From NCBI RefSeq assembly GCF_947503705.1, contig NZ_CANNES010000014.1, positions 1 to 64,000 on the forward strand: DNA of 64,000 nt, in the 5' to 3' direction. Positions 51,954 to 58,099 of the stretch are shown piece by piece. Positions within the stretch are counted from its first letter, which is position 1, and each line of letters opens with the position of its first letter. Under the pieces are notes generated by a model. It did no database searches. It was not told where the DNA came from and saw only the letters and a list, made by a program, of their open reading frames with translations. Position numbers and translations under genes: made by a program. The stretch comes from an uncultured Tateyamaria sp. (lineage in GTDB: Bacteria; Pseudomonadota; Alphaproteobacteria; Rhodobacterales; Rhodobacteraceae).

Positions 51954-52001
51954 TTACGGGGATGCGTGAACCCTTGCGTTTCGTGGGCATGCTGTGACGC
52001 T

Positions 52002-53678
52002 GTGAGCGCGGCAAGCTGGCATATGGCGGCCTTGGCCTTGCGTCTTTTGGCCATTGACCCTGCGGGGCTCGGCGGGGCCGTCATCCGCATGCGCGCCAGT
52101 CCCGACCGGGACGCCGTGATTGCTGCCTTTGACAGCCCCCTGCCCCTGCGCAAAATGCCCCCCACGATCAGTGACGAACAGCTTTTGGGCGGAATAGACT
52201 TGTCGGCGACCCTTGCTTCGTCACAAGTTATTGAAAATAAAGGGTTCTTTTCAACTCCCTGCGTGGCGTTGATCCCCATGGCCGAACGCTGCACTCCCAC
52301 CCTTGCCGCCAAGCTTTGCAATCTCATGGATCAGTCTCTGCCTCAGGGGATTTTGGCCCTCGACGAAGGCGCCGAACCCGACGAGGCCGTCCCCCCTGCC
52401 CTCGCTGAACGTCTCGCTTTCCACATCGAACCCGAAGGCCGCAGGCCACCCGATTGGAACGTTGTCCCCGCGGGGACAAACTCCAAAACAACATCTGTCC
52501 CCGCGGGGACAGACACAAAAACCGTGCCCATTTCCGACGCGCTGATCCAACTCACGACACTCGCTGCAAGCTTCGGAATCCACTCTCTCCGCGCGCCCAC
52601 CCTCGCCCTGCGCGCCGCCCGCGCGCACGCTCTTTTTCATGGCCGCACCACGCTCACCGAACCCGACATCACCGCCGCCGCGTCCCTTGTCTACCCCCAC
52701 CGCGCAACGCTGGTCCCGCAAGAGGACGCTCCCGCCGATCCGCCCCCGCCAGAAGACCAGGCGCAAGACGAACCCGAGGGCCAGGACCAGTCCGACGACC
52801 TCACCTTGCCCGACGCCGATATGCTCATCGAGGCTGTCAAAGCACTGCTGCCTCCCGGCCTGCTCCACGGACTTGTCCCCGCGGGGACAAACCGGAATTC
52901 GGGCGGCGCTGGGGCGGGCCAAACACGCACTGGTAACCGCCGCGGACGCCCCCTGCCCTCGCGCCCCGGACGCCTCGATAGCAGCGCACGCATCGACCTC
53001 GTCGCGACCTTGCGCGCCGCCGCCCCCTGGCAACCCTTGCGCCGCCAACAACAGCCCAATCGCGTGGGCCTCTTGATCCGCCCTTCCGACATCCGCCTCA
53101 AACGGTATGCCGAGCAATCCGACCGCCTGTTGATCTTCTGCGTCGACGCGTCAGGCTCTGCCGCCATGTCCCGCCTGGGCGAGGCGAAAGGCGCAATCGA
53201 ACTCCTACTAGCCGACGCGTATGCCAGCCGCGATCACGTGTCGCTGATCGCGTTCCGGGGCACCGATGCTGAAATCCTTTTGCCCCCCACACGCTCGTTG
53301 GTGCAAACAAAACGGCGCTTGTCTGCCCTGCCGGGCGGGGGCGGTACGCCGCTGGCATCCGGGTTACAGAACGCTCTGCTGCTGGCCCAGCAATCCCGCT
53401 CCAAGGGGCTGACACCCACGGTCATTCTGATCACCGACGGGCGCGCCAATATTGCCCTCGACGGCTCTGCAAATCGCGCTCAGGCTGCGACGGATGCGAC
53501 GCAAATGGCGGCTGCCCTGCGCAGCGCTGGCATCGCAAGTCTGGTACTTGACATGTCGACCCGGCCCCAGCCCGCCTTGCAGGCTTTGGGCGCAACCCTG
53601 AACGCACCTTACGTCCCCCTGCCGCGCGCAAATGCGGAGCGCTTGACGAACGCTGTGACCGCCGCGCTGGACGGTTAA
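52002..53678 (+). CDS. bchD: Magnesium chelatase subunit D
   Basis: 558 residues from the GTG at 52002; an ATG at 52023 and a GTG at 51966 are alternatives and no ribosome-binding site decides between them. The N-terminal degenerate AAA+ domain (LRLLAIDPAGLGGAVIRMRAS) is followed by an acidic Pro-rich linker (about 240-285) and a C-terminal VWA domain with MIDAS DASGS (about 382-386). Scaffold for BchI and BchH in Mg insertion. Three copies of a 18-20 bp GC palindrome are embedded in the coding sequence and read as Val-Pro-Ala-Gly-Thr at about residues 154-158, 165-169 and 291-295. Confidence 0.95.
   Translation: MSAASWHMAALALRLLAIDPAGLGGAVIRMRASPDRDAVIAAFDSPLPLRKMPPTISDEQLLGGIDLSATLASSQVIENKGFFSTPCVALIPMAERCTPTLAAKLCNLMDQSLPQGILALDEGAEPDEAVPPALAERLAFHIEPEGRRPPDWNVVPAGTNSKTTSVPAGTDTKTVPISDALIQLTTLAASFGIHSLRAPTLALRAARAHALFHGRTTLTEPDITAAASLVYPHRATLVPQEDAPADPPPPEDQAQDEPEGQDQSDDLTLPDADMLIEAVKALLPPGLLHGLVPAGTNRNSGGAGAGQTRTGNRRGRPLPSRPGRLDSSARIDLVATLRAAAPWQPLRRQQQPNRVGLLIRPSDIRLKRYAEQSDRLLIFCVDASGSAAMSRLGEAKGAIELLLADAYASRDHVSLIAFRGTDAEILLPPTRSLVQTKRRLSALPGGGGTPLASGLQNALLLAQQSRSKGLTPTVILITDGRANIALDGSANRAQAATDATQMAAALRSAGIASLVLDMSTRPQPALQALGATLNAPYVPLPRANAERLTNAVTAALDG
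52462..52479. repeat. GC palindrome site A in bchD (candidate parS)
   Basis: TTGTCCCCGCGGGGACAA, perfect 18-bp palindrome in frame, read as VPAGT. Confidence 0.85.
52494..52513. repeat. GC palindrome site B in bchD (candidate parS)
   Basis: TCTGTCCCCGCGGGGACAGA, perfect 20-bp palindrome, centre 33 bp after that of site A, also read as VPAGT. Confidence 0.85.
52873..52890. repeat. GC palindrome site C in bchD (candidate parS)
   Basis: TTGTCCCCGCGGGGACAA, perfect 18-bp palindrome in frame, read as VPAGT, at the start of the C-terminal half. Confidence 0.85.
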
Positions 53679-53681
53679 GCG

Positions 53682-54554
53682 ATGGACTGGGCGGGCATCA
53701 AAGGCTGGCCAAATGCGCATTTGTCCCGGCGGGGACACGGCCCCGTGCATCGCTGGCATATTCAGGAAACGGGCAGCGGAAAAACCATCCTCCTGCTGCA
53801 TGGCGCGGGCGGCTCGACCCACAGTTTTCGCGATGTCAGTCCACTGCTCGCGGGCCGTTTTCACGTGATTGCACTCGACCTTCCTGGGCATGGATTCACG
53901 CAACTGGGTGCCCGGCATCGCAGTGGGTTAGACGACACGGCTCAGGACATCGCCGCGTTGTGCGCACAGGAAGGGTGGAGACCGGACATCATCATTGGGC
54001 ATTCGGCAGGTAGTGCGGTTGCGCTGCGACTGGCGCAAGGGGATTTGTCCCCGCGGGGACAAACGCCTTTGGTCATTGGAATCAATGCCGCCCTCAGCGA
54101 GTTCAAGGGCGTTGCAGGCCTCTTGTTTCCGGCGATGGCCAAGGCGCTGGCGGCGGTGCCGTTTACCGCCAGACTGTTCTCGGGGGCGTCGGCCAATCCG
54201 GCCCGGATCAAGGCTCTGATCGACAGCACAGGCTCTGTTCTGGATGCTGAAGGCTTGGCGCTTTATCGGCGGCTGGTATCGGACAGGGACCACGTGGACG
54301 GCACCCTGATCATGATGGCGCAATGGCGGTTGAACCCGCTGTTGGCGCGGTTGAAAGACCACCAAGGGCCGGTTCATTTCATCGTCGGGGACCAGGACAA
54401 AACCGTGTCCCCGCAGGTTTCAGCGGACGCGGCCAAGTTGATCGCCGGGGCGCAGGTACATCGCATCGCAGACCTTGGGCACTTGGCCCATGAAGAAAGG
54501 CCCGCCGAGGTGGCGGGCCTGATCATGCACATCATTGACGAAACCGGGGTTTAG
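53682..54554 (+). CDS. bchO: BchO, alpha/beta hydrolase of Mg-chelatase operon
   Basis: 290 residues, ATG 3 bp after the bchD stop. Alpha/beta hydrolase fold: LLLHGAGGSTHSFRDV, nucleophile elbow GHSAGS, VGDQDKTV and final His in DLGHLAHEE. BchO is conserved in purple-bacterial clusters after bchID; its substrate is unproven. Two copies of the GC palindrome (one imperfect) lie in the gene, read here as Leu-Ser-Arg/Pro-Arg-Gly. Its TAG overlaps the TAA of convergent repB, so no spacer separates the photosynthesis cluster from the replication module. Confidence 0.93.
   Translation: MDWAGIKGWPNAHLSRRGHGPVHRWHIQETGSGKTILLLHGAGGSTHSFRDVSPLLAGRFHVIALDLPGHGFTQLGARHRSGLDDTAQDIAALCAQEGWRPDIIIGHSAGSAVALRLAQGDLSPRGQTPLVIGINAALSEFKGVAGLLFPAMAKALAAVPFTARLFSGASANPARIKALIDSTGSVLDAEGLALYRRLVSDRDHVDGTLIMMAQWRLNPLLARLKDHQGPVHFIVGDQDKTVSPQVSADAAKLIAGAQVHRIADLGHLAHEERPAEVAGLIMHIIDETGV
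53721..53737. repeat. GC palindrome variant site D in bchO
   Basis: TTGTCCCGGCGGGGACA, the same core with one substitution that breaks perfect symmetry. Located near the 5' end of bchO, read as LSRRG. Confidence 0.6.
54044..54063. repeat. GC palindrome site E in bchO (candidate parS)
   Basis: TTTGTCCCCGCGGGGACAAA, perfect 20-bp palindrome, read as LSPRGQ, in a different codon phase from the bchD copies. Confidence 0.85.
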
Positions 54555-55609
54555 AGACCCAAACTGTCGAGCATTACCCGCACCGCGGCCTCCAGCTTGC
54601 GCGCGTCGATGGCCCCGAAATCCTTGTCCATCTGCAGATCAATCCGGCCCTGAGCGCCGGTCACTTTGACCGTGCCGGAATGCCGGTTCAGTTTGATCGT
54701 GGTCTTGGACGACGTCGACGGGCGCGGCGTCCCGTCGGGGCGTTTGGGGGCCAGCGCGCTGTTCAGCACCGTCATTTCAGCGGCGGCTGTATCGGGTTTG
54801 AATTGATCCAACGCCACTTCGATCTGGCCGCGCAAACGGGGATGATCCTGCATCGCCTTGACCAGCTTGAGGCCCAGGGATCGCGGGATCGCCTCGGGGT
54901 AATTGATCTTGTCCCCAAGCACCGACATCAGGGCGCTGAAATGGGCGATGTAACTGCGTTTCTGACGGCCCGCAGACGCATAGAGCAAGTCGATGGCATC
55001 ACTGACCGACACGCCCACCTGCTGCGCATATGAGGACGCAAGTTGCCCCATTTCGGCGAATGAAATGTCGCGCCGCACCAGGTTTTCGTCGACCATCCGG
55101 CGATAGAGTTTTTCGAGCGCCTCGCCCTTGGCAATCAGAACGGCGGGGATGGTTTTGAACCGGTCCTCGTTCGTCTCTTTGGCGAGTGCACGGTAGGCGG
55201 AGAGCCGGCGAAAACCCTGGATCAATTCGTACCCCTCGCCGGTGTCCTCGACCTGGATCGGGTTGGACAGACCCAGTTCGAGGATCGAGGTTTTCAGCTC
55301 GTTGAACTCGGGGTCTTCGCCTTTGCCCCGGTCGCGGGTGAGCTTGGTCATTTTGACATCGTCAATGGCCACCTTGGCCACGATGGCGCCGTCCCGTTTC
55401 AGCGAGACATATTCATGGGCGAGCCGATCATTTTCGGCGCGGATCGCAGCCTCGGCCGATTGACGGTCGGTGAGGGCGGCGGCGTTTTCCGAGATGGCGG
55501 TTGCCATCGGTCCCCGCCGGGACACTTCCGTTTCGGGGGCGTCCGGGGCAGGGGCGTCGGTGTCGTCGTTCAGGTCGAAGTCGATGTCGAATACGCGGCG
55601 CTTGCTCAT
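54551..55609 (-). CDS. repB: ParB-type plasmid partition protein RepB
   Basis: 352 residues. ParB N-terminal domain with KMTKLTRDRGKGEDPEFNELKTSILELGLSNPIQV and the box II YELIQGFRRLSAYRAL, followed by a helix-turn-helix region (RRDISFAEMGQLASSYAQQVGVSVSDAIDLL) and a C-terminal dimerisation domain. It should bind centromere-like palindromes and, with RepA, segregate the replicon. The ATG overlaps the repA stop (ATGA). A weaker variant of the GC palindrome (GTCCCCGCCGGGAC, about 55510-55523) lies in its 5' part. Confidence 0.93.
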   Translation of the reverse strand: MSKRRVFDIDFDLNDDTDAPAPDAPETEVSRRGPMATAISENAAALTDRQSAEAAIRAENDRLAHEYVSLKRDGAIVAKVAIDDVKMTKLTRDRGKGEDPEFNELKTSILELGLSNPIQVEDTGEGYELIQGFRRLSAYRALAKETNEDRFKTIPAVLIAKGEALEKLYRRMVDENLVRRDISFAEMGQLASSYAQQVGVSVSDAIDLLYASAGRQKRSYIAHFSALMSVLGDKINYPEAIPRSLGLKLVKAMQDHPRLRGQIEVALDQFKPDTAAAEMTVLNSALAPKRPDGTPRPSTSSKTTIKLNRHSGTVKVTGAQGRIDLQMDKDFGAIDARKLEAAVRVMLDSLGL

Positions 55610-56910
55610 GCCTCATCCTCCAGCTGGTCCCAGGCTTGGCCCAGGTTTGTTTTGAATTCGTCATAGGCCCGATCAAAGGAGGCGCGAGCCCGTCGCCAGG
55701 TTTCCCGGGTCATGTCGCGGTAGTCGATTTCGTAGATGCTGCTGAGAAAGCGGCCCGACTGTTCGACGGCGCGCGTCATCTCGATCGGGTGTTCGCAAAC
55801 CCGGTCGCCGAACACTTTTTCGAACGCGCCCTGCATCGCGCGGTGCAGTTCATTGCCCGGCTCGAACCGCGTCAGAAGGAAGCGCAGGTCGAGGAAGGAT
55901 TTGGGCAGTGTCATTGTCCCCGCGGGGACAAGCCCGTTGAAGCGGCTGAGATCCTCCAATGCTTCGGACAATTGGCCGATGAAAGAGGTCGTGGAATCGT
56001 ATTCCCAATAGCCGGGCCCGGACGGGATATAGAGCACGTCGGCGGCAAAGACCGCGTTCATGGACTGGTAGCCGATGGCGGGCGGGCAGTCGAAAATGAT
56101 CAGGTCATAGGCGTCGGGGGCCAGCTGATCGAGGAAACGTGAGACCGCAGCGAAGAAGGACCATTCGGGATTGATGTGCCGATACTGCGCAGAGGCAAAT
56201 TCGACAAAGGCCGCGTTGGCGCAAGAGGGCACGATGTCGATGGTGGGCCAGTTTGTCGGCTTGATGAAGTCGCTGGCGCGTAGGTCGGTCAGGCCCATTT
56301 CGGTGATTGCGTTGGGCAGCTTGCGCTGAGGCAGGGCGGTGCCGGTTTCGGCCCCCTGCACGGCGGAGTTCATCCGGTCGGTCTCATGCGCCAGATCGCG
56401 AGCCATGATGCCCCAGACGGTATATTCCTCGGCCACGTCGGAGAGGCCCATGGAGTGGCTGAGCGTGGCCTGCGGATCGAAGTCGACGCACAGCACGCGG
56501 TAGCCGTCGAGGGCGGCGGCATGGGCGAAATGGAGCGCGGTGGTGGACTTGCCCGCCCCCCCTTTGAAGTTGGCGATGGCGGCGCGGATGGCACGCTTGT
56601 TCGCCGGGCGATAAGGCATGAGCGACTTGCGGTTCACCTTGATCCGGCGGCGCAGCTCGTTGATTTCCTCAAGCGTGTACCAGCGTTGGCGGCCGTCCTC
56701 TTCGACGATGCCCTGGGGCAGGGAGGGATCAGCGGCGAGCCGTCCCCGCAGGGTGGATTGGTTGGCCTTGAAGATCAGCTCGGCCACCTCCCAACTGGAG
56801 AAACGGCGCAGCGTCTTTTCGTTCTGTGGCGAAAAGGTCTGCTGGCGGATGAAGCCCTGCATTTTAAGCGATTGGGCCTGGAGTTTGGCGAGGTCGGAAT
56901 GGGTAAACAT
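55606..56910 (-). CDS. repA: ParA-type plasmid partition ATPase RepA
   Basis: 434 residues from the ATG at 56910; the open frame runs further upstream through the palindromes but that part reads as palindrome-derived sequence. N-terminal helix-turn-helix-like region (about 30-90), deviant Walker A FKGGAGKSTTALHFAHA (about residue 114 on), RVLCVDFDPQATLSHSMG, and IIFDCPPAIGYQSMNAVFAADVLYIP. ATPase driving partition and probably autorepression. One GC palindrome lies inside (read as VPAGT) and two lie 18 and 41 bp upstream of the start. Confidence 0.93.
   Translation of the reverse strand: MFTHSDLAKLQAQSLKMQGFIRQQTFSPQNEKTLRRFSSWEVAELIFKANQSTLRGRLAADPSLPQGIVEEDGRQRWYTLEEINELRRRIKVNRKSLMPYRPANKRAIRAAIANFKGGAGKSTTALHFAHAAALDGYRVLCVDFDPQATLSHSMGLSDVAEEYTVWGIMARDLAHETDRMNSAVQGAETGTALPQRKLPNAITEMGLTDLRASDFIKPTNWPTIDIVPSCANAAFVEFASAQYRHINPEWSFFAAVSRFLDQLAPDAYDLIIFDCPPAIGYQSMNAVFAADVLYIPSGPGYWEYDSTTSFIGQLSEALEDLSRFNGLVPAGTMTLPKSFLDLRFLLTRFEPGNELHRAMQGAFEKVFGDRVCEHPIEMTRAVEQSGRFLSSIYEIDYRDMTRETWRRARASFDRAYDEFKTNLGQAWDQLEDEA
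55914..55931. repeat. GC palindrome site F in repA (candidate parS)
   Basis: TTGTCCCCGCGGGGACAA, perfect 18-bp palindrome, read as VPAGT on the minus strand. Confidence 0.85.
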
Positions 56911-56927
56911 GCGCTGCCTGTCAGTGG

Positions 56928-56966
56928 TGTCCCCGCGGGGACAGATGGTTTGTCCCCGCGGGGACA
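56928..56966. promoter_or_regulatory. Two GC palindromes upstream of repA (candidate parS/operator)
   Basis: TGTCCCCGCGGGGACA at 56928-56943 and again at 56951-56966, centres 23 bp apart, just upstream of the repA start at 56910. This is where a partition operon operator or centromere is expected, and it anchors the interpretation of the identical copies inside bchD and bchO. Confidence 0.85.
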
Positions 56967-57415: not shown

Positions 57416-58099
57416 ATGCAAACGCTACGGCCGGTGGGCCAGGGCGCCTCTGCGCGCAAATACGACATTCTGACAGCTTTGGGGGCCTATGCGCTGGCGC
57501 AGGGCAAACATGACCAGCGGCGGGTCTTGCGCCTGATGACGCTGGTGACGGCGCGGTACAATTGGGCACGCGACGAATTGGCCGTGGGGCAGCGCGAGAT
57601 TGCGCGGCTGTGGTCGGTGGATGAACGCACCGTCAAGCGCGAGATGGCGCTGTTGCGGGCGCGCGGCTGGCTGGTCGTCAAACGGCAGGGCGCGCGCGGG
57701 CGCGTCACGCAATACGGGCTGGGACTGGAGCGGATGCTGCATGACACGTCTGTGCAATGGGCCGCCGTTGGCCCGGACTTTGAGCTGCGGATGGGGCAGG
57801 GGGATGTGCCGGATGCGACCGTGGTGCCGTTGCCGGTCAAAGGCGTGGTCCGCGCGCCCGATATCAGCAAGGGCACCGAATGGGCTTTGGCGCAAGCGGT
57901 GCTGCATGGTGAAGATCCGGGAATGTATGCCAGTTGGATCGCGGGACTGACGCGGGTTGAGCGGGCTGGGGGGCGGTTGACCCTGCGTGCGCCGTCGCGC
58001 TTTCACGGGGCCTATGTGCAGACCCATCTGGAGCGTCGCGTGCTGGCCGCCTGCCGTGAAGTCGACGGGGATGTGACGGAAATACGGATTGTGGTGTGA
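57416..58099 (+). CDS. DnaA-like plasmid replication initiator
   Basis: 227 residues from the ATG at 57416, preceded by GAGGG. The N-terminal part has a winged helix-turn-helix (VGQREIARLWSVDERTVKREMALLRARGWLVVKRQG). The C-terminal stretch YASWIAGLTRVERAGGRLTLRAPSRFHGAYVQTHLERRVLAACRE resembles DnaA domain I (W...L...L.APS.F....V...Y...). There is no AAA+ ATPase domain, so it is not chromosomal DnaA. This combination next to parAB matches the DnaA-like plasmid replicases of Rhodobacterales. Alternative: another small Rep class; family assignment is from memory. Confidence 0.82.
   Translation: MQTLRPVGQGASARKYDILTALGAYALAQGKHDQRRVLRLMTLVTARYNWARDELAVGQREIARLWSVDERTVKREMALLRARGWLVVKRQGARGRVTQYGLGLERMLHDTSVQWAAVGPDFELRMGQGDVPDATVVPLPVKGVVRAPDISKGTEWALAQAVLHGEDPGMYASWIAGLTRVERAGGRLTLRAPSRFHGAYVQTHLERRVLAACREVDGDVTEIRIVV

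Follow-up and report, generated by a model that had tools for sequence, protein, structure and literature searches.

A 64,000-nucleotide stretch from an uncultured Tateyamaria sp. of the Rhodobacteraceae (NCBI assembly GCF_947503705.1, contig NZ_CANNES010000014.1, positions 1 to 64,000; hereafter the window) carries seven exact copies of a 16-bp palindrome, TGTCCCCGCGGGGACA, in the photosynthesis genes bchD and bchO, in the partition gene parA (repA) and just upstream of parA, next to parB (repB). The palindrome is very probably the parS of the adjoining ParAB. From the genome comparisons below, we consider it highly likely that it is a ParB-loading parS, that conserved copies dispersed over the chromosome let this plasmid-derived ParB load chromosome-wide, and that the protein has a chromosome-scale role. 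Chromosome-wide loading in a role separable from plasmid partition is the most likely reading of what the genomes contain, namely the pairing of ParB and palindrome, the dispersal and conservation of the copies, the lack of insertion scars at most places and the uncoupling from ParA. The parS itself belongs to a known kind; for a set of parS of a plasmid ParB that is conserved and spread over the chromosome, no report was found in the literature searched.

An exact-match scan found the seven copies at 52463-56966 and no further exact copy in the 64-kb window, with maximal perfect palindromes beginning at 52462, 52494, 52873, 54044, 55914, 56928 and 56951. All palindromes listed in an earlier reading made from the letters of the window alone (the sequence-only reading) exist, its near-perfect one being TGTCCCGGCGGGGACA at 53722, 1 mismatch away from TGTCCCCGCGGGGACA. 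Its statement that none occur elsewhere in the window is right for exact copies and misses a 2-mismatch copy within parB at 55509. The two codon phases it described hold for the exact copies in window genes, and all three phases occur across the genome G002 (G, C and L numbers are our handles for genomes, contigs and loci). The unit common to the copies is 16 bp long, as the preceding letter is A in only 4% of 132 distinct copies from several genomes. Under Markov models (order 1-5), 4.4 Mb should contain 0.0007-0.003 exact copies, so seven copies in 4.5 kb are not due to chance.

Presence of the palindrome coincides with presence of the protein. Among 20 Tateyamaria genomes, including that of the window, one and the same set of 14 has both the palindrome and an orthologous ParB (66-100% identity over nearly the full length, E<=1e-145 with the window ParB as query). 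Of the six palindrome-free genomes, G006 has no ParB match at E<=0.001 and the other five have weaker relatives, with a best E of 4e-36. This genus-level association gave a Fisher probability of 2.6e-5 with phylogeny ignored. When one mismatch was allowed, 1 to 19 copies were added per positive genome and none in the six negative ones. No second ParB match was detected in G018 (95 sites) or G009 (66 sites) at E<=0.001, a search that also misses more distant ParBs. The assignment of the palindromes to the neighbouring RepB in the sequence-only reading is thus borne out by 14/14 genomes with a ParB orthologue against 0/6 without. ParB evolves faster than ParA, since ParA of the window is 93% and 90% identical to that of G009 and G018, respectively, and ParB only 71% and 68%.

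The same pairing was found beyond the genus in 295 genomes sampled across the family, with nearly every genus represented once and ParB homologues called at E<=1e-60. The palindrome is present in 26 genomes and a ParB homologue in 74, with 25 of the 26 among the 74; that is, 25/74 genomes with ParB carry it versus 1/221 without. The sole palindrome-bearing genome outside the 74, G265, has its ParB homologue at E 3e-53. Within the genus of G265 (15 genomes, several incomplete), 62 and 35 sites occur in the genomes with 100% and 88% identical ParB, one exact copy in G313 (66% ParB), none in G318 (51% ParB) and none in the 11 genomes without a ParB match at E<=1e-30. Directly beside the ParB gene of G313 lies TTCCCCGCGGGGAA, of which a further exact copy turned up at a distance from parB within 126 kb of sampled sequence. 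Overall the palindrome sequence varies with ParB clade. Such a pattern is typical of a centromere and the protein that would read it.

The own genome (4.43 Mb, 31 contigs) contains 22 exact copies, the seven of the window and 15 on seven other contigs, and no copy of a reversed control sequence. The suggestion of the sequence-only reading that the sites are a local feature of the replicon therefore holds only in part: exact copies are still about 460-fold denser in the window cluster than in the remainder of the genome, and the sites are not confined to the replicon, as in G002 45 of 55 copies lie on a chromosome-sized contig of 3.86 Mb. The 14 positive Tateyamaria genomes have 2, 2, 22 and, in eleven cases, 51-95 exact copies, including those near parAB. 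Most palindrome-bearing genera sampled have few copies, and those seen are near parAB; two other genera have 35-79. Many of the listed copies on C2, C5, C7, C10 and C11 of G319 and on C3, C7, C8 and C10 of G265 are doublets or triplets, mostly 27-60 bp apart. Unlike those of the genus of G265 and G319, the Tateyamaria copies are mostly single.

G002 is the only genome with a chromosome-sized contig and the only mapped chromosome, with positions for 50 of its 55 places, taken in contig order as far as contig 4. The sites are spaced as at random, with a coefficient of variation of the gaps of 0.955 compared with 0.969 for random placement, and a regular spacing was rejected accordingly. Called open reading frames (ORFs) contain 28 of the 45 chromosomal sites (about 87% of a 400-kb segment of G003 is coding); of the remaining sites, 9 are flanked by tandem, 5 by convergent and 3 by divergent genes. 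The gene calls are crude and several host ORFs may be over-extended at their starts. No depletion around the terminus was seen in G002, with 12-13 of the 45 sites in the terminus-most quarter under three choices of an origin that was approximated from sampled GC skew and the position of the chromosomal parB. Because the placement is random, copies lie in ORFs and between convergent genes, and the terminus is not excluded, the role would be neither that of a classical regulon nor textbook nucleoid occlusion.

Conservation of the copies was examined in loci fetched around 34 of the 72 sites of G001 and 45 of the 55 of G002. Eighteen G002 sites have an intact partner in G001, with 60-bp flanks on each side that are 77% identical. 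Such site-centred loci are biased, being chosen around sites, and contiguous DNA provides the fair test. When G001 and G002 sites were aligned to 400 kb of G003, the palindrome was intact in 6/6 rows (4 places), and in 400 kb of the ParB-less G014 it was intact in 0/10 rows (8 places); by calculation, an unconstrained 16-mer at 80% identity would be intact 2.8% of the time. These alignments indicate that copies are retained in site-rich species. At six of the eight empty places in G014 the palindrome is replaced by gapless substituted sequence, so copies arose or decayed mainly by point change. Insertion scars were lacking at most comparable places, that is, at these six of eight and in the bchO segments of L270 and L267, which have the same length.

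Three site-rich genomes outside Tateyamaria, with 35, 62 and 79 sites, encode a ParB that lacks the conserved N-terminus and has no cognate ParA next to it. In one of them, G082, whose 79 sites are spread over many contigs, the gene for this ParB comes after bchD-bchO with no adjacent parA (C17, L100), the protein lacks the conserved N-terminal block, and a 60% identical ParA is encoded on another contig beside a different ParB. In G265 (62 sites), the ParB gene and a repAB(C) operon are transcribed divergently, and no cognate parA adjoins this ParB gene (C13, L101). A search of the genome with the window ParA gave no close homologue, the best match (E 1e-22) being a RepABC-type RepA. The ParB genes of G319 (L372) and G313 are arranged as in G265. 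In a tree of 46 ParBs, the two ParA-less proteins are joined by long branches and their mutual relation is unsure. In the window and other Tateyamaria, ParA is present and ParB keeps its N-terminus. Since ParA-less ParBs coexist with large site sets, the chromosomal role appears to be separate from plasmid partition.

Noc and the ParB proteins have been described as clamps that depend on CTP and are loaded at their sites (PMC12704722, PMC8429893). From this we infer that the window ParB loads at its cluster to partition the replicon and, in site-rich species, at tens of chromosomal places. Binding, CTP gating and the nature of the function are proposals. The parS cluster in bchD, bchO, parA and the region upstream of parA would be the centromere of a plasmid or chromid, on which the window ParB (54551-55609), presumably a CTP-gated sliding clamp, would assemble and which ParA would move. 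In Tateyamaria and at least two other genera, extra parS would have arisen throughout the chromosome, mainly by point substitution, and been kept by selection, so that the nucleoid would offer the plasmid-derived ParB tens of loading places. For this second role no cognate ParA would be needed, and it might lie in nucleoid organisation or in coupling the chromosome to segregation or division, as in other ParB-derived clamps. The stronger proposal, that a plasmid ParB was recruited in several genera as a chromosome-wide clamp, with parS written in by point mutation and selected and with ParA dropped in two lineages, is in our judgement evenly balanced between being right and wrong.

A number of observations weigh against the main reading, that ParB loads chromosome-wide at parS. 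Of the 74 ParB homologues in the family sample, 49 come without an exact site; nine of these loci were examined, and eight, in favour of the reading, carry a related palindrome with outer or inner letters changed, including CTTCCCCGCGGGGAAG, TTTCCCCGCGGGGAAA, GGTTCCCCGCGGGGAACC, CTGTCCCTGCAGGGACAG and a 14-bp form of TGTCCCCGCGGGGACA, with none found at the ninth, L080. At L078 and L082 a related palindrome is about as far from parB as the parA copy is elsewhere. G004 and G015 have ParB with only two exact sites, so dispersal is not obligatory. The window ParB matches curated profiles only below their cut-offs (ParB_N, E 2.4e-5; TIGR03454, E 1.2e-8). Another protein that co-occurs with ParB could read the chromosomal copies, and the genus-level association may reflect few events. 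As for conservation, three G001/G002 comparisons in the site-centred loci were not shared, and sites aligned to 400 kb of the own genome were intact in only 3/11 rows (ten from G001 or G002, one from G005). Of the 15 dispersed copies of the own genome, four have an intact partner in the fetched DNA, two an alignable partner without the site and nine no partner. Two of the eight empty places in G014 have alignment gaps inside the palindrome. One G082 site coincides with a G001 site, so that the site sets are not wholly independent. It was the only one of 28 sites of G082, G265 and G100 to fall on a Tateyamaria place outside the ParB loci in a tblastx comparison with the fetched DNA, where several of the 28 queries had no Tateyamaria counterpart, and a general sharing of places across genera was rejected on this count.

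Among other explanations, the sites might act as a plasmid tether, chromosomal parS allowing ParB to bridge chromid and chromosome for joint inheritance and the domestication of the replicon having fixed them. The classification of Tateyamaria replicons with the photosynthesis gene cluster (PGC) as chromid-like (PMC6739100) agrees with this, as does the crowding of sites near parB: within the surrounding 3-4 kb, 4-7 exact parS occur in site-rich Tateyamaria and only one in G004 and G015. The own genome has four, and the larger number near parB possibly compensates for titration of ParB by the chromosome. However, in G265 (62 sites) and G082 (79 sites) no cognate ParA adjoins the ParB, around which the 14 kb and 19 kb fetched, respectively, contain only 2 and 3 exact sites; nor would a tether require tens of conserved chromosomal sites. 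We regard a tether as unlikely.

To a similar degree, we doubt that ParB is a regulator that loads at promoters and changes distant transcription, as VirB does with virS. The 17 of 45 G002 chromosomal sites outside called ORFs exceed the share of about 12% noncoding DNA, and several sites counted inside ORFs are at possibly over-extended ORF starts. A CtrA-like box, TTAA-N7-TTAA, lies within 80 bp of 6/102 site groups versus about 0.6 expected, a rough figure based on 7 occurrences outside coding sequence in about 104 kb. Two sites adjoin genes of the cobalamin pathway, and another is situated between yceG and a terminase gene. Against regulation, called ORFs contain 28 of the 45 sites, and of the 17 outside them 5 are flanked by convergent genes. 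The ten proteins annotated near five sites, picked for the CtrA-like box, are too few to judge a regulon; the link to this box is a lead only. At the yceG locus (L091 1501-1955, G002:C1 ~1051647, and L165), parS and TTAA-N7-TTAA share the interval between yceG and the terminase gene, whose product has a large-subunit domain and which may mark the beginning of a gene-transfer-agent cluster. The other sites with this box within 80 bp are L002/L137/L145, L012/L124/L169, L007/L122, L126/G003 379557 and L214. In two unrelated loci of the own genome (L002, L012), TTAACCACAAG directly precedes the palindrome. VirB belongs to the ParB superfamily and is a ParB relative with a non-partition role (PMC10770331), like the one proposed here, but virS acts on promoters, whereas most mapped sites here are in called ORFs on the chromosome.

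Nucleoid occlusion in the manner of Noc, with the sites marking the nucleoid and division avoiding it, appears less probable still. Noc of Bacillus subtilis resembles the present system in being derived from ParB, in having sites beyond a single centromere and in acting as a CTP clamp (PMC8429893, PMC12704722), a property we propose for the window ParB as well, and it has lost the ParA-binding part, as have proteins of the G082/G265 type. Tens of dispersed sites, 15 of them in the own genome, and ParA-uncoupled forms in two genera are in line with such a function, as is an N-terminal profile resemblance to Noc, which extends to ordinary ParB as well. The site sequence differs from that of Noc, and a terminus-excluded distribution of the Noc or SlmA kind was rejected, since the terminus quarter of the mapped G002 chromosome is well occupied. 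The lack of a ParA partner applies to the G082, G265 and G319 proteins and not to the window, as the Tateyamaria protein is still a plasmid ParB that has its ParA and retains the N-terminus.

A mobile or selfish palindromic repeat unrelated to ParB would explain dispersed exact copies within genes and the gaps at a few empty places, but it is very improbable and was rejected, as only 16 bp are common amid unrelated flanks, empty places are mostly substituted rather than gapped, and the link to ParB appears in three data sets with the sequence following ParB clade. A phage origin was also rejected: a scan of viral contigs gave three stretches (L114, L115 and L116) with one exact palindrome each and no ParB of the family in the fetched parts.

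The cluster itself has the make-up of a ParABS system, in that a ParA-type ATPase adjoins parB, a ParB domain is weakly recognisable and the palindromes cluster at the par operon. A chromosomal parS, TGTTTCACGTGAAACA, is likewise a 16-bp palindrome with TGT..ACA ends like TGTCCCCGCGGGGACA, differs in its inner letters and is clustered near the origin. The ParABS of repABC plasmids, with the parS consensus 5'-GTTNNNNGCNNNNAAC-3' (PMC9040568), shares with the present one a 16-bp palindrome with a GC centre, sites in or near the partition genes and a ParA-ParB operon; the palindromes at L077 contain GTTCCCCGCGGGGAAC, which fits this consensus. Here, by contrast, the outer letters are TGT..ACA and the replicase is DnaA-like instead of RepC. 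In addition, repABC parS are almost always in or close to repABC, with few of them tens of kb away (PMC9040568), and here many are on the chromosome. The 14-base core is absent from the text of the papers searched, and the titles and opening lines of abstracts surveyed mention no dispersed parS of plasmid type; Petersen et al. 2011, on DnaA-like plasmids, may already have described the palindrome of the plasmid.

The partition genes lie on the minus strand. ParB (RepB, 352 aa, 54551..55609), the proposed reader of the palindrome, is identified by the presence pattern and by weak but consistent ParB/RepB profile matches, and its own profile matches Spo0J/ParB/Noc in the PDB at E 5e-7 to 3e-4. 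The degenerate copy from the mismatch scan (55509..55524) is near the 5' end of parB. ParA (RepA, 55606..56910) matches AAA_31 at E 3e-25 and CbiA at E 1e-17. Its start was placed at 56910 (MFTHSDLAK), in keeping with a relative that begins MFTHTDLAK; the longest ORF reaches 57075, and a start there would take in both upstream palindromes, the exact matches at 56928..56943 and 56951..56966. The exact copy inside parA (55915..55930) is the most widely conserved one: of 34 ParB loci that contain exact copies, 29 have one in this frame of parA, at a relative position of about 0.74-0.78. No repC replicase was found in the window operon, and the ORF beyond parA (57416..58099, plus strand) encodes a putative DnaA-like replication initiator of the replicon, with a DnaA_N match (E 2e-4) below the Pfam cut-off.

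On the plus strand, bchD (magnesium chelatase subunit D, 51966..53678, start codon uncertain) was delimited as an ORF that aligns with the annotated BchD of four PGC plasmids. It has three exact copies in the VPAGT frame (52463..52478, 52496..52511 and 52874..52889). The VPAGT of the third stands at the same place in BchD of Tateyamaria omphalii, Thalassococcus and Roseobacter ponti. The gene bchO (53682..54554, same strand, from ORF and alignment) has an exact copy in the LSPRGQ frame at 54046..54061, a relative position of about 0.42 that recurs in several genera. Near the bchO start is the 1-mismatch copy (53722..53737), identical in the T. omphalii plasmid L257. A 1-mismatch copy also recurs at the bchO start in L262-L264, perhaps held by the protein sequence LSRRG and not by ParB. 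The sequence-only reading placed the copies in non-conserved parts of these proteins; the alignments agree, since LSPRGQ makes BchO three residues longer than several relatives and the BchD VPAGT copies fall in variable stretches.

We then compared the best 80 of at least 521 BchO relatives. Exact copies occur in 11 of the 14 of these loci that have a window-type ParB in the fetched stretch, and are lacking in 65 of the 66 that do not. The exception is L269, where one copy is exact, two are decayed and the fetched 17 kb contain no ParB; bchD palindromes without a related RepB, which the sequence-only reading had named as evidence against itself, were seen only this once, and the copies look like a relic. 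In L270 and L267, Tateyamaria loci without ParB, the palindrome is gone from bchO. The same parAB with the parA palindrome also occurs on replicons whose fetched stretch has no bch genes, so the copies in the pigment genes add to a centromere and do not make one. The centromere proposed in the sequence-only reading would overlap bchD and bchO to this extent, and the tie it drew between photosynthesis and replicon inheritance is best treated as conjecture.

DnaA-like I photosynthesis replicons such as pRLO149_94 have the gene order of the window, bchI-bchD-bchO/parB-parA (PMC6052148, PMC6739100 and sequence records), and palindromes in bchD, parA and bchO as here, with the bchO copy decayed by one base in R. 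litoralis. Tateyamaria PGC replicons were typed as DnaA-like I (PMC6739100), and the word stem 'palindrom' is absent from both PMC6052148 and PMC6739100. A return of plasmid-borne photosynthesis clusters to the chromosome was proposed as a scenario in PMC6052148, and decayed bchO or bchD palindromes without ParB (L269, perhaps the L270 and L267 segments) may be footprints of clusters that made this return.

If a plasmid ParB has indeed been recruited as a chromosome-wide clamp, these bacteria would present a natural and ongoing evolutionary series that leads from a plasmid ParB to a chromosomal factor resembling Noc, with intermediates of 2, about 10-22 and 51-95 sites per genome. According to PMC12704722, Noc originated when a canonical parB was duplicated and neofunctionalised. 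In the present case a plasmid ParB would have been the source and intermediates would still be alive, so that the order of events, sites first and ParA loss later, would be testable. The position of the palindrome within and next to the pigment genes is accounted for by its very probable role as a docking site for the plasmid's own segregation protein. The photosynthesis chromid and the host chromosome would then be under one centromere code, a possible molecular reason for the permanence of the replicon.

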